From Bdellovibrio sp. SKB1291214 (GTDB lineage Bacteria; Bdellovibrionota; Bdellovibrionia; Bdellovibrionales; Bdellovibrionaceae): a DNA stretch of 64,000 nt. A model generated the notes under the pieces. The model worked only from the letters and a program-made list of their open reading frames with translations. It ran no database searches and was not told the origin of the DNA. The stretch is from NCBI RefSeq assembly GCF_002209355.2, contig NZ_CP106855.1, positions 620,001 through 684,000 of the forward strand, read 5' to 3'. The first letter of the stretch is position 1; each line of letters opens with the position of its first letter. The position numbers were made by a program, and so were the translations under genes. Below, piece by piece: positions 35,289 to 53,826 of this stretch.

Positions 35289-35996
35289 ATGTATAAAACG
35301 ATACTTATCGCAACACTCTTAACATCCTCTGCCGCAATGGCAGCAGACACTCAAGAATTTGACACCAACGGCATCAAAAAACTGTCTGTAGAAAACTACA
35401 ACGGAGAAGTGACCATCACAGCTGTGGAGGGAGCCAAGGCTTCCGTCACCGTTACTAAAAACTCCATGCCTGACAAATGCCAAGTCGAATCAGAGAGATC
35501 GCGATCCTCTATCGAGGTCGAAGTGAATCGCAAAGGTAAAGCGGACTGTGTCGTTAATCTAGATATCAAAGTTCCTAAACTGGTAGCCCTAGATCTTGAA
35601 GTGGGAACCGGTAAAATCACGACCAAAGGTACACAGGGCGAGCTTGATTTCAAAATGGGCGCAGGCTCGATAATGGCTGACGGAAACTTTACCGAAGTTA
35701 AAGGTAAAACCGGCGCCGGAAACATTGAAGTCAAAGGTATTACGGGAAGTTCGAAAGTAAAAACTGGCAGCGGCAACATCAGCCTTATGTATTCTTCCCT
35801 TCCAGAAAAAGGCGAAGCGAAGTTTAAGAATGCGAGCGGCCACTCGACGTTGCTTTTGCCTAAAGGCAGCCAAATTAATGCGAAAATCATGGCTGCCACC
35901 GGAAAAATGGAAAATGAGTTTGGCAGCAACAAAGATGCAAAGTTCTCTGTTGAAGCCAAAGCCGGCTCAGGGGATTTGAAAGTAAAATCTTACTAA
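35289..35996 (+). CDS. Secreted DUF4097-type beta-helix protein
   Basis: The product has 235 residues from ATG 35289, with AAGGAGG upstream. The signal peptide ends AMA. The body is a ladder of short strands with Gly-rich turns: NGEVTITAVEG, LDLEVGTGKITTKG, GNIEVKGITGSS, KVKTGSGNISLMYS and KAGSGDLKVKS. This is the repeating pattern of DUF4097 putative adhesin domains. It probably sits in the periplasm or on the surface. Its stop overlaps that of the convergent fusion gene by four bases. Confidence 0.82.
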   Translation: MYKTILIATLLTSSAAMAADTQEFDTNGIKKLSVENYNGEVTITAVEGAKASVTVTKNSMPDKCQVESERSRSSIEVEVNRKGKADCVVNLDIKVPKLVALDLEVGTGKITTKGTQGELDFKMGAGSIMADGNFTEVKGKTGAGNIEVKGITGSSKVKTGSGNISLMYSSLPEKGEAKFKNASGHSTLLLPKGSQINAKIMAATGKMENEFGSNKDAKFSVEAKAGSGDLKVKSY

Positions 35997-37945
35997 CGAA
36001 TTTTTGGAGCGTCTGAGAAGAAGTTAAAGAAATTAAACCACTGTTCAGGGTATTGATTGATCACTTCTTCCAGGCGTGCCACGTACTGAGTTAATAGGTT
36101 CCCGACTTGCTCTTCGCGTGGCAAATGGCTGACAGAATCCGCTTTAAACGTGAAAACCTTGTACTTCATATCTTTGGTTTTAAACGCAAATACGAAATAA
36201 ATCTCGGCCTGACTTGCTAAAGCCACACGCATGGGCGTGGTATCAAAGGCTGCAAGCTTTCCAAAAAACAAACGCAAATCCAAACTACGACTGACCGGGC
36301 GGTCCCCCATCATTCCGACGAAATGACCTTCATTCAGATGATCTTTAATTTTCAAGATCGTGTTTTCAGAAAGGTTAAAAAAGACCACTTCCGCTTTGCT
36401 GCTTTGTGAGGACTGGTGCGCGTATTGCCCAGGAATTCCGTGCATCACAGCCAGCATCTTTTTCTCGGAAGGAAGTCCTGCAAAGAACGTCATCGCTAGT
36501 TCCCAACCGCCGACGTGACTTGCGACGGCAACCAGGCCCTTTGGGCTTTTTTCCACATTCTGAACAAAAGACTGAACACTGTCGTCCAACTCGTAACCAA
36601 AGACCAATTCCTTGCTTTCCCGTTGGACGGCCCGGTCCACTAAAGTTTGGGCGAAAACCATCAGCTGAGCATAGATTTTTCTTTGACGTTGGAACCAATT
36701 AAAATCAGGACGAACGACCTTCCAGTATTCGTTAAAATAAAGACGCGTTTTACGTGCGAACAAGTAATAATAAAAAACAACAAAATTCAGAAAGAAATAA
36801 GCAAATCGAAGCCCCAAGGCCTTCAACATCAAACGCATGATCATGATGCCAGTGGCATTTTTATTTTTACCACTCCAACCTTTGGCATCGGCCTTTTTCC
36901 TTCCAACGGTCTTAAGCATATACATCGCGATAAATGCGATAATACCTAAACCAAGTCCTAGCACCACCGAACCCAATCCCCACTCAGTGAAAAAACCAAG
37001 AGCTGTGTTTTCGTGATGACCCAGGATCGACTCCCCGATTTTTTTAGAGCCAAGAACTAAAAATGGAATAAATGGTGGGATGGAAATATTAGTTCCGATC
37101 CACATGTACACAAAGTTCAATCTAAAAATAAAACTGAACAACCCCGCGATAGGAGTGTGCAAACCATAAAGAGGCGTCACCCCCACAAACACCCCGACTG
37201 CAAAGGCCAATGAGCTTTTAAATGGCGAAGTTTGTTCGCGCATCATTGCAGCAATGGTTAATACCGTATTTAAGATGCCAATGCGGATATTGTCTTTGAT
37301 TTTATGAAAGTGGCTGACCCGCTTTTCAGGGGGAAAGTACTTTACTGAAATTCTGACGTTCTTTATCTCCACGTTTCGCCAAATCAAACGAGTCAGAACT
37401 TCTATTTCAAAATCGTATTTAGTGCAGAAAAATTTCATGTTCTGCAAAAAAAACAACGGGTAAATGCGATAGCCACTTTGGGAATCAGCGACGCCCACAT
37501 CTGTTTGATAACGAACCCAGAAATTCGAAAACTTTTTACCGAAGGTGCTAGAACCCGGGACGTGTTCGACCTGCATATCACGGTCGCCGACAATCAAAGC
37601 CCAAGGACTTTGCAAAGCTGCTTGGACCATTGCGGGCATGTCTTTGGGATCGTGCTGATCGTCGGCATCAATTGCAATAAAATGGGAAAAGCCTCTGCGC
37701 AGAGATTCTTTGAATCCTGTCTGCAAAGCGACGCCCTTACCTTCATTTCTTTCGTGTCGTACGAAACTGACACGTGGATGACTGTCAGGATGTTTATCTT
37801 TGAACAAACGCTCGACAGCGATATCCGACCCATCGTCAATCACCAAAATCGGATAAGTCGACTCCGCCAAGCAACGCTCTATAACGCCGACAACTGTGTT
37901 GGGGTTATTATAAACTGGAATACCAATAACAAAACGACAAACCAT
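35993..37945 (-). CDS. Three-domain fusion: GT2 glycosyltransferase, DUF2062, LpxL-like acyltransferase (ApeJ-like)
   Basis: The product has 650 residues. Residues 1-225 or so are a GT-A glycosyltransferase (VIDDGSD, then FIAIDADDQHDP with the metal-binding acidic motif). About 240-350 is a DUF2062 membrane segment (FAVGVFVGVTPLYGLHTP). From about 370 on is an LpxL/HtrB-type acyltransferase with the HX4E box HVGGWE, where lipid A enzymes usually have HFGNWE. This is the architecture of the ApeJ component of aryl-polyene clusters, thought to attach the polyene to a lipid or glycan carrier at the inner membrane. It ends the minus-strand operon begun by the LolA-like gene, one base after the plsC-like gene. 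Confidence 0.88.
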   Translation of the reverse strand: MVCRFVIGIPVYNNPNTVVGVIERCLAESTYPILVIDDGSDIAVERLFKDKHPDSHPRVSFVRHERNEGKGVALQTGFKESLRRGFSHFIAIDADDQHDPKDMPAMVQAALQSPWALIVGDRDMQVEHVPGSSTFGKKFSNFWVRYQTDVGVADSQSGYRIYPLFFLQNMKFFCTKYDFEIEVLTRLIWRNVEIKNVRISVKYFPPEKRVSHFHKIKDNIRIGILNTVLTIAAMMREQTSPFKSSLAFAVGVFVGVTPLYGLHTPIAGLFSFIFRLNFVYMWIGTNISIPPFIPFLVLGSKKIGESILGHHENTALGFFTEWGLGSVVLGLGLGIIAFIAMYMLKTVGRKKADAKGWSGKNKNATGIMIMRLMLKALGLRFAYFFLNFVVFYYYLFARKTRLYFNEYWKVVRPDFNWFQRQRKIYAQLMVFAQTLVDRAVQRESKELVFGYELDDSVQSFVQNVEKSPKGLVAVASHVGGWELAMTFFAGLPSEKKMLAVMHGIPGQYAHQSSQSSKAEVVFFNLSENTILKIKDHLNEGHFVGMMGDRPVSRSLDLRLFFGKLAAFDTTPMRVALASQAEIYFVFAFKTKDMKYKVFTFKADSVSHLPREEQVGNLLTQYVARLEEVINQYPEQWFNFFNFFSDAPKIR

Positions 37946-37946
37946 A

Positions 37947-38732
37947 TTACAAAGCCGCCTTTACCTGGCCCCAGACACTGTCACGTAAATGAACAGCATC
38001 TTGGTACTGAGAGGCATCCACAGCCGGCAAAAGTTTAATTTTGACGGGCTGGAAGGGATGAATAAAGAGATCTCCGCGGCCCATCACTTGGTCTGTGCCG
38101 TGAATTGAAAGTGGGACAACCAGAGCTTTGCTTTCGATCGCCAACGAGAAAAAAGCAGATCCGAATTTATTCACAGAGGGAAAGCCTTTTTCACAACGAG
38201 TCGTTTCAGGAAAAATTAAAACCGAGCGATTGCGTAGTAAAATACGATCTCGCATCATTTTCAATCCCTCCATCAAAGAATTCGGACTGCCCTTTTCGAC
38301 CGGGATAAATCCCGCCACCATCATGAAAGGTGCAAACAAGATATTATAAAACAACGAGCGCTTCGCAAGTCCACGCAGGCCCGGAATGTAGGAGATCAAC
38401 AAAAAAGTATCTAAGTTTGAACGGTGATTCGCGACGAAAACAATTTTTCGAGTTTTATAGCGGTCATAAAATCCGATGATGTCATGGAGATTGGTATCGC
38501 AACGAAGCCACGGTTGAATTTTTAATAGAAAGCGAATCGCCAAACATTGCACGTATTCGCCCAAGTACCGAACACGATCCGAAGCCCACTGCCATGGCGT
38601 TAATAGGAATGCCGTCAAGTACAATGCAAAGGTTAAGATATAACCAAACACAACGCCAATCACGCCAATCGTCAGGGCAAAATAAATTGACCAGAATATT
38701 CGGTGAAATCTATAACTGACATTGTTCGGCAT
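37947..38732 (-). CDS. PlsC-type lysophospholipid acyltransferase (ApeD-like)
   Basis: The product has 261 residues from ATG 38732, with AGGGTGA six bases upstream. A membrane segment at about 17-40 precedes the acyltransferase box VANHRSNLDTFLL (HX4D), then GFIPVEKGSPNSL and FPETTRCEKGFP, the second and third conserved blocks. Such enzymes are regular members of aryl-polyene loci. It is encoded on the minus strand, divergent from the ketoreductase gene with only 30 bases between. Confidence 0.88.
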   Translation of the reverse strand: MPNNVSYRFHRIFWSIYFALTIGVIGVVFGYILTFALYLTAFLLTPWQWASDRVRYLGEYVQCLAIRFLLKIQPWLRCDTNLHDIIGFYDRYKTRKIVFVANHRSNLDTFLLISYIPGLRGLAKRSLFYNILFAPFMMVAGFIPVEKGSPNSLMEGLKMMRDRILLRNRSVLIFPETTRCEKGFPSVNKFGSAFFSLAIESKALVVPLSIHGTDQVMGRGDLFIHPFQPVKIKLLPAVDASQYQDAVHLRDSVWGQVKAAL

Positions 38733-38762
38733 AAAAATCACCCTAGCATAGGATTTCTTGAG

Positions 38763-39479
38763 ATGTCAAAAATTGCACTTGTCACCGGAGCTTCTTCAGG
38801 AATTGGTCGCGCCATCGCAATTCGTTTGGCTCAGGACGGATTTAATCTTCGTGTCCACTACAATTCCAACTTGAAAGGCGCCGAGGAGACTTTGGCAGAA
38901 GTACAAAAGCATTCTCCAGAAAGCAGCTTGTTACAATTCGATATGGCAGATCCTCAGCAGGTGGAAAGCGCCTTGAAAGATGTCGACGTTCATACTTTGG
39001 TGAACAACGCGGGGATGCACATTGACGGAATGGCTGCGTTGATGTCGAACGACGCCTTTGAAAAAGTCGTAAAGACAAATCTCTTTGGCCCTTTTTACGT
39101 CTCAAAAATCTGCGCTAAGAAGTTGCTGCTGAAGCGCGCAGGTTGCATCGTTAATATTTCTTCATTGGCAGGACAAACTGGCAATGCCGGACAAGTGAAC
39201 TATTCGGCCAGTAAGGCAGGATTGATCGCGATGACAAAAACCATGGCAGCAGAGTTGGGCCCGCGAGGAATTCGCGTGAACGGTGTCGCTCCCGGTCTTA
39301 TCGAAACGGAGATGATCAGCACTATTCCTCATTTAGAAATGATTAAGAAGCAAATTCCATTGGGACGTTTTGGCAATCCCGAGGAAGTGGCGGGAGTGGT
39401 TTCGTTTTTGTGCTCGAAAGATGCCACATACGTAAACGGCCACACAATCAGCGTTAACGGCGGTCTTTTTCCGTCATAA
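38763..39479 (+). CDS. 3-oxoacyl-ACP reductase, FabG-like (ApeQ-like)
   Basis: The product has 238 residues of the short-chain dehydrogenase type. The cofactor site is VTGASSGIGRAIA. NNAG is at about residue 82, and the catalytic YxxxK is in QVNYSASKAGLI. The ending YVNGHTISVNGG is typical of FabG. Its place inside the polyene cluster points to reduction of the growing polyketide rather than ordinary fatty acid synthesis. It is the only plus-strand gene in this half of the cluster. Its end overlaps the DUF3261 gene by 26 bases, convergently. Confidence 0.88.
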   Translation: MSKIALVTGASSGIGRAIAIRLAQDGFNLRVHYNSNLKGAEETLAEVQKHSPESSLLQFDMADPQQVESALKDVDVHTLVNNAGMHIDGMAALMSNDAFEKVVKTNLFGPFYVSKICAKKLLLKRAGCIVNISSLAGQTGNAGQVNYSASKAGLIAMTKTMAAELGPRGIRVNGVAPGLIETEMISTIPHLEMIKKQIPLGRFGNPEEVAGVVSFLCSKDATYVNGHTISVNGGLFPS

Positions 39480-40011
39480 ATTTATAAGACGTCGTTTTAA
39501 TCTGAACTTGGTATTGTCCCTTGGTCTGCACTGTCATATTCAAAGGGACCCCCAGGTCGTCATATCCTGAAAAAGTCACGTGAGCAGAAATCCCGTCTTG
39601 TTCCAACAGAATTTCGTCGCCTTTTCTGCGCGGATCGTCTTTGCGCAGATTAACGATGGTTTTGACCAATCTGAAAATCTTAATAAAGAAATCTTTATGC
39701 TGTTTTATCTGCTCAATCGAGCTTTCTGATTCTATGGGCTGGCCTTGAACTTCTTTGATTTTGAAAAGAGAAATGCCGAAAGAGTTGTATCCATAGAACA
39801 GCATCTCTTTCGGTCGTTTCTGCACAATACAGCTAAAATCAAAATTCTGAACGGGCTTAGTCGCTGTCACTTCAACTTCAACATCTTGAGAATAACGACC
39901 ATCTGGAAACAACAAGTTTCCCTGCTCTTCGGGAACCACTTGTTTACCGGCGCAAGCAGACAACAACATCACAACCAGAATGCATGTCCCGTGCAGACAG
40001 ATCTTTTTCAT
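39454..40011 (-). CDS. DUF3261-type outer-membrane lipoprotein (ApeN-like)
   Basis: The product has 185 residues. The lipoprotein signal ends LLSAC, with lipidated Cys at about residue 20. The strand-rich body (VEVEVTATKPVQNFDFSCIV, ILLEQDGISAHVTFSGYDD) fits the LolB-like DUF3261 family of aryl-polyene loci, which probably receives the pigment at the outer membrane. The start overlaps the exporter stop in ATGA. Confidence 0.8.
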   Translation of the reverse strand: MKKICLHGTCILVVMLLSACAGKQVVPEEQGNLLFPDGRYSQDVEVEVTATKPVQNFDFSCIVQKRPKEMLFYGYNSFGISLFKIKEVQGQPIESESSIEQIKQHKDFFIKIFRLVKTIVNLRKDDPRRKGDEILLEQDGISAHVTFSGYDDLGVPLNMTVQTKGQYQVQIKTTSYKFMTEKDRR

Positions 40012-42203
40012 GACTTGGAACCTTTCATAAGTTTCTTTTCAAGCCGTAAGAATTTTACCAGTCCCCAGCGAGTTCCTAGATAAGTTCCCACGGTTCCAAA
40101 AAACAGCGCAAATCCTAACTGATGCAAAATTGGATGCTTTGCAAAGACCATGGGGAAAAAGCCGATCACGTTCGTCAAAGCAGCCAATCCCAGTACTGAT
40201 TGGATGATATCGAATTCTTCCTCGGGCTGTTTAAAAGCGTAAAAATCCGTAACGAAAACTCCGTAATCAATACTGAATCCAAAAACCATCAACAGTCCCA
40301 AGACAGATATTAAATCCAAACTGCCGCCTTTAAAAAAATTGGCGATGTAGAATAAGCCCAGTCCGCTCATAAAGGGGATATACGCTGCGATCACCCAATA
40401 AAAATTGCGATAATAAATCAACAAAACTATTGTCGACAATATCAGTGCTGCAGGAATCATCCATTTCAGATCACCCTCTAAAGAGTCGGAAAATCCTTTA
40501 ATCGACTCCACCAACGAGTGCGCTTCCGGAAATTTTTCTTTGATCAATTGTTTTTGCGCGGGTGTTTCGCCAAAAAATACAGATATAAACTGTCCCTGAC
40601 CAACCAAATGATTGAGATAATCTTTGCTAGCTAGATCCTGGAACTGCAAGGGCTTGTGATTCGCACAGGTATTTGCCACAAATGGCGCAAAAACTTTGGC
40701 TTCGTTGCCAGATAAGTTCTTTCGCAGATATTCGCAGCCTGAACTGTTCCAAGACTGAATATTCGCGTGCTGAGTTTCAAGACTTGGCAAATACTCACCA
40801 AGACCAACATACGAAATTTTATTTGCCTGGCTCCAGAGCTGCTCCTCGATTGTTTTCGTATTAAGATCTTTTTGGTCATGCAGCAACAAATACGTTTCGC
40901 GCTGAGCCCCTTGCGAGAAAAACCAGTTCGTCGCTTCCTGATCTCCTGCTAATTGATAGTTGAACCTACGAAGATCAAAACTTAAATCAACATTGAAAGA
41001 ACCCACCACGCCAAGAGCGATCATTAAAAAAATGACCACTCCGCTATATTTAAATTCTGGGAAATACCAAGAAATCGGCTTGAGCGTGAAATATCTCGGC
41101 AGATATTTGCATAACAAAAAGAAAATAACGAAACCAAAGAAAATACCCAGTGTTCCAAAGACCATCATCTGACGGATCAGCGGAATGCCACTAAATGCAA
41201 GAATTCCCAATCCAACCAAGGTCGTAAGAAATCCCACAAGGTTTGACTTCCATGTTTGTTTTGATTCCTGATTGAAAGCCCCATGCAAACCATAATCAAC
41301 GGCCAAGCCTACGATACCCGAACCAAAAGCCAAGGTTAGTCCGTGGATGCTACCATAAAATAATTCCGTCACCCATCCCGCCAAAAACATGGCGATGGCA
41401 ACGGGTGGGAACAACAGTAAAGCGCCGATCCGTCCCTTCACTACCAGGAAAGCAATAAAGCCCACTAACACTGCAATGCCCACCCAGGAAACGATTTCCA
41501 TGTCTTCGTGAACTTGCTTTTCATTGGAATAAGATGCTCCGTGAGCACCGACCAAATGAACATCCTCATATTTTTTAAGTTCATCCATCAGGTCTTGAAC
41601 ATTCGACATCTTCGGTTGAACGGCGAACTGCAGCGGAATAACTAAGCGCTGAGACTGCGGCTCTAGAAGAAATCCTTGCTCTCTAAGAAAGGCTGCAGGA
41701 GTCATTGCTTGGCTTTTCTGTAAATAGACTTGCCACTGATCGGTCGGATCGACGCGCTTTAAATTAAAAAATTCTTTTTTATCTGAACTGATAAAGCTTA
41801 ACTCCGAAAGGGCTCCTTGCAATGAGTCCATATATTGCGCTGGTGAATTGACGGAGGCGTTAAAATTTTCGCGCAAGACCAGATCCTTGGCCCAATCTTC
41901 GAGGGTGCCAATAAAACCACCAAGGTCATCACCACAGATCAATCTTTTAACGCTTTTACCTTGGTACTCTTTCAGATCGGAACAAAGCAGATTCGCTTTC
42001 TCGAAATCAGCTTTTCCGTTAACCGGGTTGATAACAATGAAGTTCCACCAAAAAACCGGAAACTCTGTTTGCGAATACTGCAGATATTTAAGACTTTCGG
42101 GAAAAAAGATATCGACCGAATCGTCAATCTTTGCAGAGGCCGAAGATACAAACAATGCCGTCATCATTGCGATTGCGGCTGAAAACAATTTTATCGATCG
42201 CAT
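40008..42203 (-). CDS. MMPL/RND-type exporter (ApeM-like)
   Basis: The product has 731 residues. There is an N-terminal membrane segment or signal, a large periplasmic loop, then clusters of membrane segments in two halves: AFGSGIVGLAVDYGLHGAF and the matching LMVFGFSIDYGVFVTDFYA. The repeated GLxxDYG motif in the fourth segment of each half is the proton-relay region of MMPL-type transporters. In aryl-polyene loci this protein is thought to move the lipid-linked pigment. It sits between the LolA-like and DUF3261 genes, with overlaps at both ends. Confidence 0.88.
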   Translation of the reverse strand: MRSIKLFSAAIAMMTALFVSSASAKIDDSVDIFFPESLKYLQYSQTEFPVFWWNFIVINPVNGKADFEKANLLCSDLKEYQGKSVKRLICGDDLGGFIGTLEDWAKDLVLRENFNASVNSPAQYMDSLQGALSELSFISSDKKEFFNLKRVDPTDQWQVYLQKSQAMTPAAFLREQGFLLEPQSQRLVIPLQFAVQPKMSNVQDLMDELKKYEDVHLVGAHGASYSNEKQVHEDMEIVSWVGIAVLVGFIAFLVVKGRIGALLLFPPVAIAMFLAGWVTELFYGSIHGLTLAFGSGIVGLAVDYGLHGAFNQESKQTWKSNLVGFLTTLVGLGILAFSGIPLIRQMMVFGTLGIFFGFVIFFLLCKYLPRYFTLKPISWYFPEFKYSGVVIFLMIALGVVGSFNVDLSFDLRRFNYQLAGDQEATNWFFSQGAQRETYLLLHDQKDLNTKTIEEQLWSQANKISYVGLGEYLPSLETQHANIQSWNSSGCEYLRKNLSGNEAKVFAPFVANTCANHKPLQFQDLASKDYLNHLVGQGQFISVFFGETPAQKQLIKEKFPEAHSLVESIKGFSDSLEGDLKWMIPAALILSTIVLLIYYRNFYWVIAAYIPFMSGLGLFYIANFFKGGSLDLISVLGLLMVFGFSIDYGVFVTDFYAFKQPEEEFDIIQSVLGLAALTNVIGFFPMVFAKHPILHQLGFALFFGTVGTYLGTRWGLVKFLRLEKKLMKGSKS

Positions 42204-42817
42204 TTTTCATCTTTCAAAACAGCAGCGACCTGAGTCTTCATATCCAAGAACTCGATGCGAATTTCATCTTTTGATTTTTCTTTGATCAGGACATTTTTTA
42301 CTAACCCGTCTTTGTTAATATCCAATGTCGCTGTTTCAAAAAAGGCCTTTTCCAGATTTTTCGGTGTCAGCAAATACTGCGCACCTTGCTTTTGAACGAC
42401 GAACTCTTCTGTGATGCGATTCTGATTCATTGTGATGATTTTCAAAAGGCTTGCGATCTGATCGCCTGCCTCCTTACCGACTTCGGAAAACTTCAAGTTC
42501 TTACGTTGAGGAGGCATGCCCGAATCAACAACGATCCCGACCCCGTCGATGCAGATATTTGATGGTTTAGGCTTTGTAATATTCCAATGAAACACGGACT
42601 TTTCTGGCGTCGGACGCAAAACTTGGAAGCGCCCCTCCGTCTTAATTTCCACATCCAGCTCTTTCAAAATTTTAGATTGTTTAAACTGACCGGTGAGCTT
42701 CTTAAACTCCGCAAGCTTCATGTCCTTCGACGGAGCCTCGCCTTGCAATGCGGCAAGCGCAGACTGAGCTACGACAAAGAAAACTAAAAAAATCAGAAAT
42801 TGACGGTGGACTCTCAT
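42191..42817 (-). CDS. LolA-like periplasmic lipoprotein carrier (ApeL-like)
   Basis: The product has 208 residues from ATG 42817, with GGAGT upstream; the frame extends 56 codons further into the region divergent to the ACP gene, without support. A signal peptide ends ALA. The body reads like the LolA half-barrel: KLTGQFKQSKIL, then FQVLRPTPEKSVFHWNIT and QYLLTPKNLEKAF. It would carry the hydrophobic product across the periplasm. First gene of the minus-strand export operon. Confidence 0.85.
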   Translation of the reverse strand: MRVHRQFLIFLVFFVVAQSALAALQGEAPSKDMKLAEFKKLTGQFKQSKILKELDVEIKTEGRFQVLRPTPEKSVFHWNITKPKPSNICIDGVGIVVDSGMPPQRKNLKFSEVGKEAGDQIASLLKIITMNQNRITEEFVVQKQGAQYLLTPKNLEKAFFETATLDINKDGLVKNVLIKEKSKDEIRIEFLDMKTQVAAVLKDEKCDR

Positions 42818-42869
42818 AAAACACTCCAAACGAGTTGAAATGGAAGTAATTTGATATATCATCTCGCTC

Positions 42870-43145
42870 ATGGAAAAAGAACAAGTTCGAAATGAATTAA
42901 CTTCCAAGGTCATCGATATCATCTTTACAACGCTTAATTTGAAGCACATCGACAGATCGGGCGTGAATGAATCAACGGCAATCACTCAAGGTGGTTTGAA
43001 TCTTGATTCCATTGATATTTTGGAACTGATCGTAAACTTTGAAACAAGCTTCGGCATTAAGTTGAACGAATCAGAATCTTATGCACAACACTTCCGCAAC
43101 ATTGGATCCATCGTCGAGTTTATTGAAAGCAAAAAAAGCAACTAA
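42870..43145 (+). CDS. Acyl carrier protein (ApeE/F-like)
   Basis: The product has 91 residues. The phosphopantetheine site is Ser47 in GLNLDSIDILELI, with the usual helical frame. It is the first gene of the plus-strand biosynthetic operon and lies two bases before a ketosynthase. There is no recognisable Shine-Dalgarno before the ATG, which is unusual here. Confidence 0.9.
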   Translation: MEKEQVRNELTSKVIDIIFTTLNLKHIDRSGVNESTAITQGGLNLDSIDILELIVNFETSFGIKLNESESYAQHFRNIGSIVEFIESKKSN

Positions 43146-45507: not shown

Positions 45508-46552
45508 GGAATTACTGCCTCAAGATGCCAAATTTATGGCGCAATTTATCGCCATGGCACCGTTCGTTTTTCAAACCGCTTTGTGCTTGCGAGACCTTGG
45601 CGTTCTAAATCTGCTGTGCGAAAACCTGCAAGGCATGACTTCCGAAGACATGTTGAAAAAAATGAATTTAAGCCGTTACAGCTTGAATGTTCTTTTAGAT
45701 GCCGGTGAAAGCTGCGGTATCTTGAATGAAAATAATAAAACTTGGACGATCACTCAAACTGGTATTTTTTTGGAAAACGACGCCATCACACGGGTGAACA
45801 TGAATTTTTCCCAGGACGTGTGCTATCAAGGTCTCTTTAATTTGAAAGAATCTCTTGAAACCAACACACCCGCTGGTTTGAAAGTTTTTGGGAACTGGGC
45901 CACTGTTTATGAGGGGCTTTCAAGCTTGCCACGGAAAGTTCAACAGAGCTGGTTTGAGTTTGACCACTTCTTTAGCAGCGATAGTTTTCCGCGCGCACTC
46001 CCGATCGTATTTAAAGATAAGCCCAAGAAGATTTTAGATGTGGGCGGTAATACCGGCAAATTCGCTGTGGCTTGCACGCAATATGATAGTGCTGTCAACG
46101 TGACGATCGCGGATCATCCTGGGCAAATTGAAATGGCTAAGGTGAATGCATCCAACAATAACGTTGCTGATCGCGTGCATTATCACGTCACCAATTTGTT
46201 AAAGCACGATCAAGAACTTCCACAGGGCCATGACACAATCTGGATGAGCCAGCTTTTAAGCTGCTTTTCTGATGAGGAGGTTGTGATGCTTCTAAGCAAA
46301 GCTCGAAAGGCTTTAGGCCCTAACGGCAGCCTGTACATCATGGAAACCTTCACCGATAATCAGAAATTCAACACGGCTCGCTTTTGCCTAGATATGACTT
46401 CCTTGTACTTTACAGCAATGGCCAACGGAAACAGCCGTATGTATCGCAGTGAAGAATTTTATAAATTGATCGCAAAGGCAGAGCTGAAAATCGTAGAGGA
46501 ACATCCTTTCATTCGCCTCAATCACACGATCCTCAAATGCGTACCAGCGTAA
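45473..46552 (+). CDS. SAM-dependent methyltransferase (ApeB-like)
   Basis: The product has 359 residues from ATG 45473, with AAGAGG upstream. The N-terminal 150 or so are a helical dimerisation and winged-helix part. The SAM-binding domain has ILDVGGNTGKFAVA (motif I), VTIADHPGQIEMAK and TIWMSQLLSCFSDEE. This is the O-methyltransferase (PF00891) plan. In the cluster it would methylate the aromatic ring or its hydroxyl group. It overlaps the deacetylase gene end. Confidence 0.88.
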   Translation: MQVTPATTPAAKELLPQDAKFMAQFIAMAPFVFQTALCLRDLGVLNLLCENLQGMTSEDMLKKMNLSRYSLNVLLDAGESCGILNENNKTWTITQTGIFLENDAITRVNMNFSQDVCYQGLFNLKESLETNTPAGLKVFGNWATVYEGLSSLPRKVQQSWFEFDHFFSSDSFPRALPIVFKDKPKKILDVGGNTGKFAVACTQYDSAVNVTIADHPGQIEMAKVNASNNNVADRVHYHVTNLLKHDQELPQGHDTIWMSQLLSCFSDEEVVMLLSKARKALGPNGSLYIMETFTDNQKFNTARFCLDMTSLYFTAMANGNSRMYRSEEFYKLIAKAELKIVEEHPFIRLNHTILKCVPA

Positions 46553-46561
46553 CGCGCGAAG

Positions 46562-46590
46562 TTATGTTGTTTATCTAAAGTCGTTATAAT
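46562..46590 (+). promoter_or_regulatory. Promoter candidate before the second ketosynthase
   Basis: A perfect TATAAT lies at 46585-46590, 34 bases before the TTG start. The -35 region 17 bases upstream (TTATGT) is weak. The 72-base gap in an otherwise tight operon supports a separate promoter. Confidence 0.45.
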
Positions 46591-46624
46591 ACGATTATTT
46601 TTCATTCGATTTTTGGAGTTTTGA

Positions 46625-47842
46625 TTGAAGGTCTACGTTACCGGCACAGGAGTTATTTCCTCTCTGGGCAACAGTACAAAAGAAATGTTCAGTTCCTTAC
46701 TTGAAGGAAAAAGTGCCGTACGTCCGATTCCTGCGTGGGATAACTTAAATGGGTTGAACTGCAGACTTGCAGCTCCCGCACTTCCCTATGACAACCGCAC
46801 TCTTCCCCGCACCGTACGCAGAACCATGTCACCGATGTCCGAGATGACGGCGCTCGCAACTCAACAAGCTTTGACTGAAGCTGGCTTGAACGTTCAAGAA
46901 ATGGATTTTTCAAAATCGCTTCTGTCTGTGGGATCTACAACTGGCAGCCCCATCGGCCTAGAAGAATACTTTCAAAAAATCTCTGAAAACAAGGGCGTGC
47001 AAGGTCAATCTGGCACGGCTTTCTTTAAAGTCATGAATCACTCTGTAGCTTCGAATGTTGCTGTGGCTTTAGGATTTAATGGTGCTGTGATTTCACCAAG
47101 CAGTGCCTGTGCCACTTCAGCCCAAGCGGTGATCTTGGGTTGGGAGCTCATCAAAGCCGGACTTTATGATATCGCTATCTGTGGCGGAGCGGATGAACTG
47201 CACTATTTGAGTGTGGCCGTTTTTGATTCTGTCTATGCAGCTTCGCGCGGTTATCACGATTCACCCTCTGCCACACCCCGGCCTTTTGATAAAAAACGGG
47301 ACGGGCTGATTGTTTCTGAAGGCGCTTCGATTGTGATCCTTGAAAGCGAGAGAAGTGTTGCAAGGCGCGGTGCCAAGCCTTTGGCAGAATTTTTAGGCGG
47401 AGCTTATCGCTGTGAAAGTTCCCATATGAGCCAAAGCAATGAAGTTCAAATGCACCACGTAATGACAGCTGCCTTAGAACGATCTGGAATTACAAAAGAC
47501 GACGTCGAGTATGTCAGCGCCCATGCGACAGGCACCATGCAAGGTGACGCCGCGGAGGCCATCGCTATAGGAAATCTTTTTGGCACACAAGTTCCGGTCA
47601 GCTCATTGAAAGGCCACTTTGGTCACTCAATGGCCGCTTGCGGTGTTGGCGAGTTGATAGCCAGCATGCAGATGATGAGAGAAGGAATTTTGATTGGAAC
47701 TCGCAACTTGGAAGAGGTTGCTCCTGAATGCGCCACGGTCCTACACTTGCAGGAAAACCGCAAAGTGAATGCTGATATCGCTTTAAGCAATAACTTTGCT
47801 TTCGGTGGCATCAATACAAGTTTTGTTATTAAGAAAATTTAA
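46625..47842 (+). CDS. Beta-ketoacyl-ACP synthase II (ApeR-like)
   Basis: The product has 405 residues, starting with TTG supported by GGAG seven bases upstream. The nucleophile is Cys162 in SPSSACATSAQ, the first histidine is in SAHATGTMQGD and the second in LKGHFGHSMAACG. It reads as a full FabF-type enzyme that could work as a homodimer, like ApeR. An ACP gene follows 17 bases downstream. Confidence 0.9.
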   Translation: MKVYVTGTGVISSLGNSTKEMFSSLLEGKSAVRPIPAWDNLNGLNCRLAAPALPYDNRTLPRTVRRTMSPMSEMTALATQQALTEAGLNVQEMDFSKSLLSVGSTTGSPIGLEEYFQKISENKGVQGQSGTAFFKVMNHSVASNVAVALGFNGAVISPSSACATSAQAVILGWELIKAGLYDIAICGGADELHYLSVAVFDSVYAASRGYHDSPSATPRPFDKKRDGLIVSEGASIVILESERSVARRGAKPLAEFLGGAYRCESSHMSQSNEVQMHHVMTAALERSGITKDDVEYVSAHATGTMQGDAAEAIAIGNLFGTQVPVSSLKGHFGHSMAACGVGELIASMQMMREGILIGTRNLEEVAPECATVLHLQENRKVNADIALSNNFAFGGINTSFVIKKI

Positions 47843-47859
47843 ACAGCACGGAGTGAGCA

Positions 47860-48123
47860 GTGAGCCATTACAACACTGAAGTCGTAAACATCGTAAATAA
47901 TATCCTTCACGAAAAATTCGAAGTACCGAAAGACGCCTTAATTCCGACAGCACATCTTAAAGATGACTTACAGTTGGACAGCTTAGATTTCGTAGATATG
48001 TTCATCTTGCTTGAGCAAGAAACGGGAAAGAACCCACAGAATGTGGACTTTATGAAAATCAAAAATTTAGGTGATATCTATCAACTGGTCAGTGAACTTA
48101 CAGTGGCTGAAACTGTAAATTAA
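47860..48123 (+). CDS. Acyl carrier protein, second copy
   Basis: The product has 87 residues starting with GTG, with GGAG six bases upstream. The phosphopantetheine serine is Ser41 in LQLDSLDFVDM. It differs from the first ACP in sequence and charge, so the two probably carry different intermediates. It overlaps the convergent dehydratase gene by 26 bases. Confidence 0.9.
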   Translation: MSHYNTEVVNIVNNILHEKFEVPKDALIPTAHLKDDLQLDSLDFVDMFILLEQETGKNPQNVDFMKIKNLGDIYQLVSELTVAETVN

Positions 48124-48481
48124 TCTCCGCCAAAGCTTTGTCACCCTCGCCGATCCAATTTACATTGAAGGTCGCGGCAAGGGTGCCGGCCTGATCTTTG
48201 ATTTCTTTTTGAATTTTCAATAAGACTTTATCACCTGGCGCCACAGGATTTTTGATTCTAAAATTTGAGATGTTACTTAGCAGATTTTTTGACTGCTCCA
48301 GATCCTGAATAAAGTACTGACTGATATCGATCATCGCAACGGCTGGTAAAATAGGGAGTTGTGGGAAATGTCCCGCGAAATAGGACCAAGAAGGCGAAGG
48401 CTGAATTTCCACTTCCATCGCATCAGTGCTTTTTGAGCGAATCTTGTAAGTTCCTGAAAGTTCCTTGGCCAAATCAATCAT
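48098..48481 (-). CDS. FabZ-like hotdog dehydratase (ApeI-like)
   Basis: The product has 127 residues from ATG 48481. The hotdog signature is YFAGHFPQLPILPAVAMIDI, with the catalytic histidine in GHFP as in FabZ. It would remove water from a 3-hydroxyacyl-ACP. No clear Shine-Dalgarno is seen; the frame reaches 34 codons further, across the start of the divergent ketosynthase, which is unlikely. It is a single minus-strand gene among plus-strand ones. Confidence 0.85.
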   Translation of the reverse strand: MIDLAKELSGTYKIRSKSTDAMEVEIQPSPSWSYFAGHFPQLPILPAVAMIDISQYFIQDLEQSKNLLSNISNFRIKNPVAPGDKVLLKIQKEIKDQAGTLAATFNVNWIGEGDKALAEINLQFQPL

Positions 48482-48511
48482 AGGTGAGAAAATACACCCG
48501 GAGGAATCCCT

Positions 48512-49669
48512 GTGTACATCCAAAATTATTCTTGCACCACCGCAGCGGGATTTGGGACACGCGTCCTGATGTCTGCCCTGCATTCTGGAAAAGACTGCTC
48601 CCTTCCTGTGGAGTCCGGGGGCCGTGTTTGTTATCTAGAACAAAAACCTGAAAAAAATCAGACCTATAAAAATATCTTTGTAAATTCCTTTAAACAATTA
48701 GGACTGCCGTTGTTAGAGGGTCTTTCTAAAGAGGCCTATAGTGATCTTTCTAAAAGTCGCGTCGCTTTGATTTTTGCGTCGACCAAAGGATTTATCGAAG
48801 ATTTCATCTGGAGCGCAACGAGCGAAAACATTCGTACTCATGCAGATCCGTTTACGGAGATATGCCAGGACTTCACTGAATCTGTGGGTGAAATCGAATG
48901 GACGTTTCACTGCAACGTAAGCAACGCCTGTGCCTCAAGCCATGTTGCATTGGAGTACGCCCAAGACCTGTTCGCAGCACAGCGAGCGGAATATGCTTTA
49001 ATTATTGCCGGGGATTTGATCGGCCCTTTTATTTACAAAGGCTTTCAATCATTGAAAGTCATCTCACCATCTGGCAATCGGCCCTTTTCGGGCGATCGCG
49101 AGGGCCTGCAATTAGGCGAAGCTATGGCCCTGCTGCTGGTGTCTCGGGATCGCAAGTCGCCTCAGGACTTACAAATCACTGGAGTCGCAAGCGACACGGA
49201 AGGTTCCTCGATCACTCGTCCCTCATTGAATGGAGTGGGACTTTTGAGAGCGATCGAAAAAGTAAATTCACAATCGCCTCTTCATCCTGACCTAGTCATC
49301 GCTCACGGCACTGGAACAAAATTTAACGACTCGGCGGAAGAGCAAGCGCTTAGCAGATTTCTGACACCTCTCAATCAACTGAACACTCCCATCACCAATA
49401 CCAAGTGGTGCATTGGACATACCTTGGGTGCCAGCGGTCTGATTGATGTCATTGCCGCCTGTGAAATTTTAAAGACTCAGAAAGCTTTTCGTATTCAAAA
49501 CACGCAAAACAAGGAAAATGGATTTCAAGGAAATTATCTAACGGCGAGTAGCGATGTCGAACAGTATCGCAAATTCCGACAGATCCTAGTCACGTCCCTT
49601 GGCTTTGGTGGAATACACGCCGCATGTTCTATTAGCTCAGAGGAGATGATCAATGAAGCTCGCCGTTGA
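48512..49669 (+). CDS. Beta-ketoacyl-ACP synthase III-in-cluster, KAS I/II type
   Basis: The product has 385 residues, starting with GTG after GGAGGAA. Cys140 lies in VSNACASSHV, with histidines in IAHGTGTKFND and CIGHTLGASG, so it is catalytically complete. It is more divergent than the other two ketosynthases, especially near the N-terminus. It overlaps the next small gene by 17 bases. Its role may be starter-unit extension, which is inference. Confidence 0.88.
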   Translation: MYIQNYSCTTAAGFGTRVLMSALHSGKDCSLPVESGGRVCYLEQKPEKNQTYKNIFVNSFKQLGLPLLEGLSKEAYSDLSKSRVALIFASTKGFIEDFIWSATSENIRTHADPFTEICQDFTESVGEIEWTFHCNVSNACASSHVALEYAQDLFAAQRAEYALIIAGDLIGPFIYKGFQSLKVISPSGNRPFSGDREGLQLGEAMALLLVSRDRKSPQDLQITGVASDTEGSSITRPSLNGVGLLRAIEKVNSQSPLHPDLVIAHGTGTKFNDSAEEQALSRFLTPLNQLNTPITNTKWCIGHTLGASGLIDVIAACEILKTQKAFRIQNTQNKENGFQGNYLTASSDVEQYRKFRQILVTSLGFGGIHAACSISSEEMINEARR

Positions 49670-50096
49670 TTTACAAAGAACCACTGAACCGGCCTGGAGC
49701 TCGAAGGTCGATCGCTGGTACCAGCTTGATGAAGTCGGATATGCTTTGTGCGAAGCCCTCTTTCAATGGGAACTTTTAAAAGATGAACCCCGGCCTGACG
49801 TCATTTTTCTGGCGTTGCCTGAGGCGTCGAATCTGGCCGACTTCGATTTCGTTTCGACCGGAGCTTCAAGTCCTGCAAAGTTCGTGTTCACTTTACCAAA
49901 TATTTGCGCCTCCGTTATTTTTCAGATGCTGGGATTCAATGGTAAAGTTTATTGTCTGAACAAAGGGGATAGAACTATTGAGTTCGCTAAACAAGAAGCT
50001 CAAGAAATGAAAAAGGCTGGAAAAACCGCGTGGGTTTTTGCCAGCCCTGCTCAACTTTCTGACGGCCGTCGCGAAGTTGAATTCGCAGCGTATTAG
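49653..50096 (+). CDS. Small ketosynthase-like protein, no active site
   Basis: The product has 147 residues. It matches the pattern of the 172-residue partner protein: FTLPNICASVIFQMLGFNG, then VYCLNKGDRTIEFAK, as in the first half of a ketosynthase. No catalytic cysteine or histidine motif is present. Coupling to a complete ketosynthase suggests a second non-catalytic partner. The resemblance is weak, so the family assignment is tentative. Confidence 0.55.
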   Translation: MKLAVDLQRTTEPAWSSKVDRWYQLDEVGYALCEALFQWELLKDEPRPDVIFLALPEASNLADFDFVSTGASSPAKFVFTLPNICASVIFQMLGFNGKVYCLNKGDRTIEFAKQEAQEMKKAGKTAWVFASPAQLSDGRREVEFAAY

Positions 50097-50557
50097 AAGC
50101 TATATGCCAAGCCCAGACCTGGAGCCTTTGGATTGGGAATGAAGAAGGCTTTTACGTCGCTATCGACGGGAGTTGCACCCGTCCACGCGTCCACGATTTC
50201 CCAAACGTGGAAACCAATCCAAACACCGAAGCCGGCAAGAATCAAACCGTCGTTGTCACACTTCCACTTTTTTGAACCATTGGCTTGAACTTCATCATCA
50301 CAACTCGCAGCGCCCGCGACAACCATGGCCAAACCAGCTGTCTCGGTTGCAGTGAAAATCCAACCCTTTTCAGCGTAACGCCCCTGAATACCGTGACCAA
50401 TACCAAATCCCACAGCAGATGTCAAAACGCCGCCTGTGATGTATTTCCCCGTCTCCACGGGAACGCGCGTGGATGTTTTCGGAAATTCATCATCTGCATG
50501 AGCCCAAGAAAAAGACAGAGTCACACATATTGCAATCAAAATTTTAATGAGATTCAA
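50093..50557 (-). CDS. Secreted P13-like membrane protein
   Basis: The product has 154 residues with a signal peptide ending AHA. The body has small hydrophobic stretches rich in glycine (VLTSAVGFGIGHGIQGRYAE, ETAGLAMVVAGAA, LILAGFGVWIGFHVWEIVD). This is like the P13-type outer membrane family, but I hold that loosely. Two cysteines flank a hydrophilic loop. It separates the biosynthetic part from the ligase and lyase genes and may be unrelated to the pigment. Confidence 0.6.
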   Translation of the reverse strand: MNLIKILIAICVTLSFSWAHADDEFPKTSTRVPVETGKYITGGVLTSAVGFGIGHGIQGRYAEKGWIFTATETAGLAMVVAGAASCDDEVQANGSKKWKCDNDGLILAGFGVWIGFHVWEIVDAWTGATPVDSDVKAFFIPNPKAPGLGLAYSF

Positions 50558-50572
50558 GTAACACCTCGCTGT

Positions 50573-52267
50573 TTACTGACCACAATATAATTTGAGGCCA
50601 ACCTGAGCAAGAAGCTTTTTGCCATTAAACACTTTCCCTTGGACCACTTTCAAAGGACCAAAATCATGAGTGCATGTAGTCTCAATACGAAGACTTTCCC
50701 CCAGGTTATGATCAGAATCAGCGAAATCAAATTGAGCATTTTTGACTTCTGCGATGAAAGTGACTTTGCCCCTATAGGCGGGTTCGATTCCTAAAATATC
50801 ATTGGCAAGAACGCTAAAGCCGTAGGTCTGCGCGATCCATTCAATACAGGAACTTTCACGTACCTTACCGCCAGATAAATAACGTCCATGGGATTTCAAA
50901 GTCACCGTGCCCACGCCCTGACCTTTTTTAAAATCCGAAACGTGATCAATCCAAACAGCGCCCCCTTTGTGAGGCAAAAGATATTTCATATATTCAACGG
51001 GCATCGTTGCGCCCCATTTGCGATGACGAAGGACTTCTTTAATACCTTCCACACGATCGAACTTAAAATTGCTGTTCAATGGAATATCTGCAAATACGAT
51101 GTTTTGTGATGAGGGCTTAATTCCCACCGCCTTAAACACCAGCTCAGAAATTTCTGCTTTCACCTTTTCAGAATCCACTGGCGACATTTGTACAATGAAA
51201 CCTATATCTTCTCCTAAGCGTTCATCATACAAATTCACGGCCATGCATTTACAGGAAAAATGAGAGGAGATTTTTCCCTCTAAAACTTCCATGGCAAGTT
51301 TCAGGCCCCCACGATTGACGACTAGATCCGTACGTCCCGTAAATGTAAAGCGCACCTTTCCATGGGCCACCTCTTGTTTTAAAGAATCTTTTAGAAGAAT
51401 TTTCTCGGAGTGTTTAAGTTCACCGTTTTCAAAAATCCCCGCGCAGGCATTGGAACCTTCAAAGTAAACGCCGTCCTCTTGCACTTTCACTTTGACACCT
51501 GAAAGTGCGTAACCGATGTCACCATCCTCTTGAGGTGGAATTCCCGGCGGTAAATGAGTTACGCCCGGTGAAGCCTCCGTTGCTCCGTAACCCACACTCG
51601 GCTGTTCTATCTTTAAAATCGAACGCATCTGTTCCCATAGTTCCTTAGTCGCCATCGCTCCACCGACAATGGAAGTGTAAGATGCTTTCGGGGTCAGGCT
51701 TTGCTTTTTTATGAATTGGATCAGATCAATGAAATGAGTCGGCGTACCTAAGGTTAAAGTGTTTGCATCGACGCACTCCATCCACGACTCGTGAGTGGCG
51801 CGCGAGTAACCACCTTCTGCAAAGATAATTTCCACATTATGCAAAACTGCCTGCATATAGCCTAAAACCAGTCCAAACGTGTGCGTGGGTTGTGGATAGG
51901 AAAAGATCTTTTGGATGCGGTTAACGTTATACAGTTCGCGAATGGCATTAAGGGAAGAAACCACATTTTCTTGAGAGTAAAACACAAGGCGATTCACCCC
52001 GGATGTCGTGCCAGAGGTGAACACTCCCAAAACAGCTTTCTCAAGAATACTTTTTTCGGAGGACTTAAGCTCCCGTGGATTTTGCTGAGCCGCTTTTTTT
52101 AGATCCTCCGGCCAATCTCCGTGCAACTCGTATTCGGAAAAGATTTGCAAGAACTGAAAGTCCCGATGGTAAGGAGGCACCAGAATAAGCAATTCACCGG
52201 CCTCCCAATACTTTTTTAGAAGCTTCGGTAATTCTTTATGATGGGTTCCGCGCCACAAATGAACCAT
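50573..52267 (-). CDS. AMP-ligase fused to a hotdog dehydratase (ApeH plus ApeP)
   Basis: The product has 564 residues. The first 420 or so are an ANL adenylating enzyme: VFTSGTTSGVN (phosphate loop), VGYGATEASPGVT, FTGRTDLVVNRGG and the late lysine region NSNFKFDRVEG. It would activate an aromatic acid and load it on an ACP. Its N-terminus is short for the family. From about MPVEYMKYLLPHKGG on, the last 145 residues are a hotdog domain of the ApeP type (SCIEWIAQTYGFSV). These are separate genes in E. coli-type loci. The start overlaps the lyase stop by one base. Confidence 0.85.
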   Translation of the reverse strand: MVHLWRGTHHKELPKLLKKYWEAGELLILVPPYHRDFQFLQIFSEYELHGDWPEDLKKAAQQNPRELKSSEKSILEKAVLGVFTSGTTSGVNRLVFYSQENVVSSLNAIRELYNVNRIQKIFSYPQPTHTFGLVLGYMQAVLHNVEIIFAEGGYSRATHESWMECVDANTLTLGTPTHFIDLIQFIKKQSLTPKASYTSIVGGAMATKELWEQMRSILKIEQPSVGYGATEASPGVTHLPPGIPPQEDGDIGYALSGVKVKVQEDGVYFEGSNACAGIFENGELKHSEKILLKDSLKQEVAHGKVRFTFTGRTDLVVNRGGLKLAMEVLEGKISSHFSCKCMAVNLYDERLGEDIGFIVQMSPVDSEKVKAEISELVFKAVGIKPSSQNIVFADIPLNSNFKFDRVEGIKEVLRHRKWGATMPVEYMKYLLPHKGGAVWIDHVSDFKKGQGVGTVTLKSHGRYLSGGKVRESSCIEWIAQTYGFSVLANDILGIEPAYRGKVTFIAEVKNAQFDFADSDHNLGESLRIETTCTHDFGPLKVVQGKVFNGKKLLAQVGLKLYCGQ

Positions 52268-53826
52268 TAATTCCTCAAGGCCTGTCGTTGCATCTCTTGC
52301 GTGAGATTAAATATTTCTTGTCCAAGGCTGCGATCGTAATTCACGAAAGCCACTTGGGAGCGAACCATGTGATAAACTTTCTGAGATTGTTCACCCTGCA
52401 GTTGAACGTCTTTCAAATCTAAAGCCTGAGCTAAGCACACCAACTGCATTGCTAAAATCTTATAAACACCTTCCAGCATATCCAAGCAGGTCATCGAAGC
52501 GCTCATACCTAAGGAAACCTTGTCCTGGTTATGAGACTCCGAGGAGCGCGAGAAAATACCACTAGGAATTGAGCGCTGAATCACTTCGCTGGTGATCGCA
52601 CCAACGGTCTGATGGAGCCCCTTCAATCCGTGATGCATATGTTGCTCTCCTTGCGGAATTGATTTGATATCAATCAAATTCGCTGGCAAACCGCGGTTGA
52701 ATTTCTCACTGACCAGCATCAACAACTGGCGATCCGCCAAATCCGCGATATGCGCCAAATTGATTTTTACAAAATCCATAGCCTGGCACAAATAACCGCC
52801 ATAAAAGTTACCTCCCATTTCCAGGCCACCCTCGAAATTTACCACAGGGTTGTCTGTGACGGAGTTGATTTCATGTTCAAGACTTGACCAGGAATGTTTT
52901 AGATTTTCCCTTATAGGCCCCAGAATTTGCGGGACACAGCGCATGGAGTATGGATCTTGAACGAACTCGGAGGTTTTATTTTTTACAACAGAGACCTCTT
53001 GGCCTCGAGCGGGATTGTAATTTTCCGCATCTAATAGCACGCGGATATTTTTTGCACTTTCGCCTTGGCCTGGATTGGTCTTGGCCACTTCGTTAATAAA
53101 TGCCCCAAATGCTTCCTTGCGCCCGCCCAGCAGCAAGCACTGCCAAGCAGCCGCGACTTCACACAGCTCAACAACAAAGTCCGTCAGCTTTAAGTTATAA
53201 AGCACCATGCCTGCCATCGTGGAAGTTCCATTTACGATCGCAAGGCCTTCTTTAGGTTTTAATTTGTAAGGAGTGATATTGAGTTTTTTTAAAACATCTG
53301 CAGCCGATTTTTTTTCGCCTTTATAAAAGACCTCGCCAAGGCCTTGAACTGTTTGTCCAAGGTACGCCAGAGGCACCAGATCCCCGCTCGCTCCTAAAGA
53401 ACCTTCGCAAGGAACCACGGGCAAGATATCATTTTCTAAAAGCAGGCACATTCTTGCAATCAGCTCAGGACTGACAGCGGAGACCCCTTGAGCCAAAGAA
53501 TTCAAACGAACCAAAAACATCGCCCGCGAAGCTTCAGTGGGAATCGTGCGACCTTGTCCGCAGCTCAGATAGTTGATTAGATTTTTTTGCAATTGATCGG
53601 CATGATCTGGCTCAACATAACTAGTAGCATTGTCGCCAAAGCCCGTGGTCACGCCGTAAATGGGAGTGCCTTTGTCGATCCAAGACTTCAAAGACTTAAA
53701 CGAATATTCAATTTTCTTTTGCAAATTTTCGTCGACTGAAACTTCATTGAAAAGTTCGCGTTGAAAAACGAAATCGGATAAGTCTTTAACTGTAAGATGC
53801 CCTTGCAGCACCAAATTCTTTGCCAT
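52267..53826 (-). CDS. Aromatic amino acid ammonia-lyase (HAL/PAL/TAL family)
   Basis: The product has 519 residues from ATG 53826; a TTG two codons upstream is possible. The MIO prosthetic group forms from Ala-Ser-Gly at 146-148 in GSLGASGDLVPLA. The catalytic tyrosine is Tyr57 in IYGVTTGFG. The substrate-selectivity pair in LQKNLINYLSCG is Tyr86-Leu87, where tyrosine lyases have His-Leu, phenylalanine lyases Phe-Leu and histidine lyases Ser-His. It would release coumarate or cinnamate as the pigment starter for the ligase. No histidine-degradation genes are near, which argues against HutH. Confidence 0.9.
   Translation of the reverse strand: MAKNLVLQGHLTVKDLSDFVFQRELFNEVSVDENLQKKIEYSFKSLKSWIDKGTPIYGVTTGFGDNATSYVEPDHADQLQKNLINYLSCGQGRTIPTEASRAMFLVRLNSLAQGVSAVSPELIARMCLLLENDILPVVPCEGSLGASGDLVPLAYLGQTVQGLGEVFYKGEKKSAADVLKKLNITPYKLKPKEGLAIVNGTSTMAGMVLYNLKLTDFVVELCEVAAAWQCLLLGGRKEAFGAFINEVAKTNPGQGESAKNIRVLLDAENYNPARGQEVSVVKNKTSEFVQDPYSMRCVPQILGPIRENLKHSWSSLEHEINSVTDNPVVNFEGGLEMGGNFYGGYLCQAMDFVKINLAHIADLADRQLLMLVSEKFNRGLPANLIDIKSIPQGEQHMHHGLKGLHQTVGAITSEVIQRSIPSGIFSRSSESHNQDKVSLGMSASMTCLDMLEGVYKILAMQLVCLAQALDLKDVQLQGEQSQKVYHMVRSQVAFVNYDRSLGQEIFNLTQEMQRQALRN

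Follow-up and report, generated by a model that had tools for sequence, protein, structure and literature searches.

Which pigment would a bacterium make if its gene cluster combined the parts of two pigment families and lacked the genes that are diagnostic of either? Aryl polyenes (APEs) and flexirubins, both widespread membrane pigments, are as a rule distinguished by lineage and gene content. The question of how far such a distinction holds is raised by Bdellovibrio sp. SKB1291214, in whose single-contig genome of 3.68 Mb a window of 64,000 nucleotides (the whole stretch of DNA analysed here, positions 620,001 to 684,000 of contig NZ_CP106855.1) contains a complete-looking pigment gene set of about 18 kb (35993-53832; Table 1). 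The reading put forward here, to which a probability of roughly three in four is attached, is that the product of this cluster is an aryl-polyene lipid of the outer membrane, started from a cinnamic acid that derives from an amino acid. The cluster is a variant within known pigment pathways and not a new kind of system. A search by title and abstract for Bdellovibrio together with aryl polyene, arylpolyene or flexirubin returned no pigment paper, which, being confined to open-licence literature, is weak evidence.

Gene content and layout

What does the cluster contain? A sequence-only reading had described an aryl-polyene-type cluster with its own starter supply, and each of its gene classes was found where that reading had placed it, through open reading frames, Pfam and NCBIfam: two acyl carrier proteins (ACPs), ketosynthase (KS) pairs, a ketoreductase (KR), dehydratases (DHs), an AMP-ligase, a methyltransferase, export proteins, acyltransferases and an ammonia-lyase. 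The polysaccharide deacetylase, the fusion of the AMP-ligase with a DH and the two half-size KS partners are additions to its list. The set encodes a type II polyketide synthase (PKS) of the aryl-polyene type, accompanied by genes for export and lipid attachment. The overall description is borne out by the gene content, by synteny in three species and by homology to both Ape and Flx proteins. The APE reference for these comparisons comprised all 18 Ape proteins of Escherichia coli CFT073, taken from the annotated genome, and the flexirubin references were the flx-type cluster of Cytophaga aurantiaca and others fetched by a methyltransferase profile search.

The same reading saw neither ApeG nor ApeK, and this is confirmed: a query with ApeG (COG4648) finds nothing anywhere in the genome, though it does recover ApeG from the loci of Photobacterium and G126 discussed below, and no ApeK-like thioesterase lies within the cluster. 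In E. coli a partial pigment survives the loss of apeK (PMC8253772).

Table 1. Features of the pigment cluster, in coordinates of the window
Feature	Position	Strand	Family, motif or match
ApeJ-type fused GT2-DUF2062-LpxL-like acyltransferase, 650 aa	35993-37945	-	PF00535, PF09835, PF03279
ApeD-type PlsC acyltransferase	37947-38732	-	PF01553; HX4D motif HRSNLD; BLAST to ApeD E 7e-8
Ketoreductase, ApeQ/FlxB-type, FabG-like	38763-39479	+	
Lipoprotein, probable DUF3261/ApeN (LolB-like)	39454-40011	-	weak PF11659
MMPL/RND transporter, ApeM-type	40008-42203	-	PF03176; phmmer to ApeM 6e-12
LolA-like carrier, ApeL-type	42191-42817	-	PF03548; start 42817
Divergent intergenic region, 52 bp	42818-42869		LolA start ATG 42817, ACP1 start ATG 42870
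Promoter-like site inside the divergent region	42835-42862	+	TTGAAA-N16-TATCAT
ACP1, ApeE-like	42870-43145	+	DSI motif
KS-A, elongating-type ketosynthase	43148-44314	+	PF00109/PF02801; C-H-H intact
Half-size KS partner of KS-A, probable ApeC-like chain-length factor	44311-44829	+	PF13723
Polysaccharide deacetylase, flexirubin-branch accessory	44830-45507	+	PF01522, 95.7 bits
Ring methyltransferase, FlxJ/ApeB family	45473-46552	+	
KS-B, ApeR-type ketosynthase	46625-47842	+	39% to ApeR; C-H-H intact
ACP2, ApeF-like	47860-48123	+	PF00550; DSL motif
ApeI-like dehydratase between ACP2 and KS-C	48098-48481	- (inverted)	PF22818, 36.3 bits, over cut-off
KS-C, third ketosynthase, divergent	48512-49669	+	PF02801; C-H-H intact
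Probable half-size KS partner of KS-C, second ApeC-like	49653-50096	+	no family match
Small secreted/outer-membrane-like protein	50093-50557	-	weak P13 similarity, matches below cut-off
AMP-ligase fused to ApeP-like hot-dog dehydratase	50573-52267	-	PF00501
Aromatic amino acid ammonia-lyase	52267-53826	-	PF00221, 469 bits; ASGD MIO motif

The cluster had further been divided into two operons, for export and synthesis, diverging at about 42.84 kb. The point of divergence stands, the intergenic region there being near-identical in the congeners G016 and G018, from which the genes measured are separated by near-saturated synonymous sites. The count of two does not: the KR is embedded on the plus strand in the minus-strand export block, the ApeI-type DH on the minus strand in the plus-strand synthesis block, and the ligase and lyase form a third unit on the minus strand, such that the transcription layout is more fragmented than two divergent operons. 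A scan for promoters and terminators was at chance level overall, and the divergent site alone stands out, through its conservation. The small secreted or outer-membrane-like protein is retained in the clusters of G016, G018 and a more distant relative, G062, at 51-66%.

Chain assembly and ring methylation

The three ketosynthases differ in their affinities. KS-A groups weakly with the flexirubin-cluster KS clade (support 90/65) and scores best against the flexirubin references (190 bits, APE 158), KS-B groups with ApeR (support 99/97; APE 292 bits, flexirubin 221), and KS-C forms a long clade of its own, with its best score again to the flexirubin references (123 bits, APE 102). Two small proteins follow KS-A and KS-C, and each is probably a half-size partner to its KS, of the kind represented by ApeC, which has one thiolase fold and is roughly half as large as the KS it pairs with (PMC8358021). 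For the first, the resemblance is found by hhalign to ApeC (90%, E 1e-6) and by a model of modest quality (pLDDT 67), whose Foldseek matches are FabH-type KSs, the half-KS 7f28 and ApeC itself (6qsp_B). For the second, hhalign to ApeC is not significant, and a partner role is proposed because of the top Foldseek match of its AlphaFold model (pLDDT 73) to the half-KS 7f28 (E 1e-3) and because BLAST links it weakly (36% over 80 aa) to an ORF in the flx cluster of Pinibacter; there is no APE match. Both models were built on shallow alignments.

The KR reaches 256 bits with the NCBIfam FlxB model, below the cut-off of 340, with 44% identity to ApeQ and 45% to the Cytophaga protein, and favours the flexirubin references (213 bits, APE 182). 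The ApeI-like DH keeps its inverted position in G016, G018 and G108. What the sequence-only reading had taken for a second dehydratase is the C-terminal domain of the AMP-ligase, whose last 155 aa match ApeP at 95.7% (E 1e-8); an assignment of this fused DH to ApeI was set aside in favour of ApeP on comparing the matches. In G108 the ligase and the ApeP-like DH are separate, adjoining genes.

The methyltransferase gives 473 bits with the NCBIfam FlxJ model, below the cut-off of 560, and is 45% identical to ApeB and 49% to the Cytophaga enzyme (flexirubin 377 bits, APE 339); a quick tree, with the weaker support of SH-aLRT only, places it on the FlxJ side. In known pathways methyltransferases of the FlxJ/ApeB type act beside a phenolic hydroxyl, and the presence of an orthologue implies a hydroxylated ring. 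The deacetylase is 31-34% identical to those in flx-type clusters of Bacteroidota and is without a counterpart in the APE references.

Supply of the starter

Where would such a ring come from? The gene for the ammonia-lyase overlaps that of the ligase by one base. The enzyme had been likened to the lyase of flexirubin producers, a comparison that is not borne out, for in a quick tree it falls with the lyases of APE clusters from Photobacterium aquae and a second Bdellovibrionales genome (G126), together with one Spirochaete lyase (SH-aLRT 98), and FlxA lies outside this clade. Likewise, its best scores are 317 bits to the APE and 244 bits to the flexirubin set, the NCBIfam FlxA model yields 342 of the 700 bits required, and its second motif reads NQDK, where FlxA-type enzymes have NQDI and HutH proteins KEDH. 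On the tree and motifs, FlxA was rejected as its identity. A duplicated HutH was also rejected, given that the genome holds a separate, typical HutH and that the motifs differ.

The lyase has the GASGD of the MIO group, but the position aligned with His89 of RsTAL is a tyrosine (NLINYLSCG), neither the His of tyrosine ammonia-lyases (TALs) nor the Phe of phenylalanine ammonia-lyases (PALs), and for this reason its substrate is uncertain; even for FlxA, specificity is reported to have defied prediction from such motifs (PMC3992019). The clade found in APE clusters is one of enzymes whose substrate the known specificity residues do not reveal. Tyrosine is the likely substrate on the logic of the pathway rather than on that residue. 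Chorismate lyase UbiC is absent from the host genome and five related genomes, with a positive E. coli control, so that the E. coli starter route is missing, which fits tyrosine as the source of the ring. Could the enzyme instead be a PAL or an aminomutase, giving a cinnamate start and a ring without a hydroxyl? The Tyr-Leu at the specificity position is intermediate between the His-Leu of TAL and the Phe-Leu of PAL, and in a PDB search characterised PALs and aminomutases score about like the TAL. However, the cluster has conserved a FlxJ/ApeB-type methyltransferase, known examples of which methylate next to a phenolic hydroxyl, and relatives of known chemistry have hydroxylated starters, which makes this alternative unlikely and leaves tyrosine as the preferred substrate.

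The adenylation domain of the ligase has no BLAST match to ApeH, the 4-hydroxybenzoate-ACP ligase of the E. coli type, or to the ligase of the Cytophaga flx cluster, and its hhalign match to ApeH may be just at superfamily level. The only flx matches of the ligase fall in its C-terminal DH domain, and with no BLAST match its identification as the PaaK-type ligase of the Cytophaga cluster was dropped. In G062 (L033:1504-2307) a cluster of the same type has no lyase, and its ligase is reduced to the C-terminal end with the DH, the adenylation domain being largely gone.

Lipid anchor and export

The GT2 part of the ApeJ-type protein is 35% identical to E. coli ApeJ, and the GT2-DUF2062 part scores best against the flexirubin references (237 bits, APE 130); in C. 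aurantiaca the GT2-DUF2062 and acyltransferase parts are separate proteins. Among the export components, the LolA-like carrier gives 33.5 bits with the NCBIfam LolA2_flexi model, below the cut-off. For the lipoprotein, DUF3261 is the sole Pfam match in three independent orthologues, with hits that fall short of the cut-off (E 0.011-0.077), and recurs in orthologues from two other families; hhalign to ApeN is not significant.

These genes bear on whether the product could be a true flexirubin, that is a polyene acid in ester linkage with a dialkylresorcinol whose genes lie outside the cluster. The methyltransferase, deacetylase, GT2-DUF2062 part, KS-A and the second KS pair are all nearest to flexirubin-cluster genes. 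Against this, the genome lacks the dialkylresorcinol synthase DarB: its query reaches FabH alone (27 bits), whereas NCBIfam identifies DarB in two Bacteroidota genomes bearing flx-type clusters that served as positive controls. The one KAS III-like protein besides FabH looks like a type III PKS, though its 86 bits with the DpgA model fall far short of the cut-off, and anchor acyltransferases of the APE type are present instead. Because DarB is absent, flexirubin sensu stricto was rejected as a candidate and is very unlikely as the product, barring an unrelated resorcinol route. The type III PKS-like protein (C1 near 1355176; L122:679-1788) lies beside a membrane protein and has no link to the cluster.

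A proposed pathway for the aryl-polyene lipid

How might these parts work together? The lyase would deaminate tyrosine, its most likely substrate, to 4-coumarate, which the AMP-ligase would activate and load onto an ACP. Malonyl extension would be carried out by KS-A with its half-size partner, aided by the ApeR-type KS-B and by KS-C with the second partner, and each unit would be reduced and dehydrated by the KR, the ApeI-like DH and the ApeP-like DH domain such that all new double bonds stay. The methyltransferase would add a ring methyl beside the hydroxyl. The PlsC-type and GT2-DUF2062-LpxL-type enzymes would then transfer the polyenoyl chain to a lipid anchor. This may be a glycolipid from whose sugar the deacetylase removes an N-acetyl group, and the MMPL protein, LolA and the DUF3261-like lipoprotein would bring the product to the outer membrane.

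We infer every reaction and substrate, the anchor and the colour from the chemistry of related pigments (PMC3992019, PMC8253772, PMC8358021) and from what is observed, namely genes, homologies, motifs, synteny and missing genes; the roles of the deacetylase, the lipid anchor and the third KS are deduced from gene content. The pathway is supported by the homology of nearly all genes to Ape or Flx proteins, by the intact KS triads and ACP serines, by the conservation of the cluster and its divergent promoter region in relatives, by a lyase that differs from HutH and whose gene overlaps that of the ligase, by the absence of UbiC and by the ring-methyltransferase orthologue, and is weakened by the Tyr at the specificity position, by an adenylation domain that BLAST does not connect to ApeH and by the missing ApeG and ApeK. 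The yellow colour and oxidative protection suggested by the sequence-only reading would follow by analogy, from the chemistry of relatives. If made, the pigment would change the outer-membrane make-up of a bacterium that is likely to live as a predator inside others, a niche in which a shield against oxidative stress could be of use.

Distribution and history of the cluster

Among 130 genomes of the class, the methyltransferase is found at 400 bits or more in the host genome, G016, G018, G062, G108 and G126 only. The congeners G016 and G018 have the whole cluster at the same site, with 65-96% protein identity and active sites intact, and G062 and G108, from two further families of the order, carry the same cluster type; such comparison loci as stem from metagenome bins are possibly incomplete. 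The G108 cluster (L038/L034) also has an FAD monooxygenase/halogenase-like gene, a CrtI-like gene and a homologue of a gene from Dyadobacter flx-type clusters (L038:9209-10408, L034:533-2113, L034:6200-7861).

The cluster sits between a tRNA-Arg gene (34591-34667) and a TPM-domain gene (53911-54570). This interval is a variable site across the genus, the tRNA orientation also depending on the species. In the sister species G023 the genes on either side (pirin, TPM, LemA and RluA-like) share 80-94% identity with those of the host, and at the site itself (L134:4704-6297, C4) just KS-C and its partner are left, with frames intact. In this pair the catalytic Cys has become Ser and one His Asn, and its dN is 0.37 as against 0.05-0.14 for LemA, TPM1 and RluA; the small neighbouring gene at 34754 has diverged equally (dN 0.38). 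The pair still has pN below pS, as a relic or a repurposed pair might. In three of the four other cluster-free congeners fetched, the tRNA-Arg and TPM genes are at most 0.7 kb apart. Read most simply, the cluster was present in the ancestor shared by these species and was lost in G023.

Might the host cluster itself be a decaying remnant without a product? That the sister species retains one KS pair alone, and that most genomes of the genus are without the cluster, would suit such a view. Nevertheless, frames are intact in three species at the protein identities given above, with synonymous sites near saturation in the genes measured, and the catalytic residues of the cluster are intact, leaving decay with a very small chance beside a working aryl-polyene pathway.

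Comparison with known systems

Judged by best scores against both reference sets, the cluster is a mosaic of APE and flexirubin parts, neither plain APE nor flexirubin, in which KS-B and the lyase lean towards APE and the methyltransferase, deacetylase, GT2-DUF2062 part and two KS/half-KS pairs towards flexirubin. The cluster and its relatives thus mix both types without the diagnostic parts of either (ApeG and a UbiC-derived starter; DarB), and genome-mining rules would therefore misname the product. A more tentative proposal, which is possible though doubtful, is that the aryl-polyene lipid belongs to a third class, encountered so far in Bdellovibrionales, that is lyase-primed, has three KSs with two half-size partners and is held by a deacetylated glycolipid anchor; if true, both starter and anchor would be unlike those of any described APE or flexirubin.

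With the APE systems of E. coli CFT073, Xenorhabdus doucetiae and Acinetobacter baumannii the cluster shares an ApeO-type KS with half-size partner, the ApeR-type KS, two ACPs, the KR, DHs of the ApeI and ApeP types, the ring methyltransferase, acyltransferases of the ApeD and ApeJ types and LolA/MMPL/DUF3261-like export, with ApeN represented by the weak DUF3261 matches. It differs from these systems in having a lyase and ligase in place of UbiC-derived 4-hydroxybenzoate, the ligase fused to an ApeP-like DH, an extra KS/half-KS pair, a polysaccharide deacetylase, DUF2062 in ApeJ and an FlxJ-side methyltransferase, and in the lack of ApeG (genome) and ApeK (cluster).

With the flexirubin clusters of Chitinophaga pinensis, C. 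aurantiaca and Pinibacter soli it has in common an ammonia-lyase, an FlxB-like KR, an FlxJ-like methyltransferase, the deacetylase, GT2-DUF2062, LolA and two KS/partner pairs, and with Pinibacter a third KS too. Unlike these, its lyase belongs to another clade and has NQDK and a Tyr specificity site where FlxA-type enzymes have SH and NQDI, its adenylation enzyme is unrelated, and it is without the thioesterase, in a genome without DarB.

Also close are the lyase-bearing APE clusters of P. aquae (L097) and G126 (L139), in which a lyase of the same clade adjoins ApeJ. In G126 (L139:1-15001, L007) the lyase gene follows ApeJ in a classical APE cluster and an FlxJ-family methyltransferase lies on another contig. 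Both clusters retain the genes of a classical APE system, among them ApeG, ApeH and a longer partner of the ApeC type, whereas the layout of the cluster in the window is flexirubin-like.
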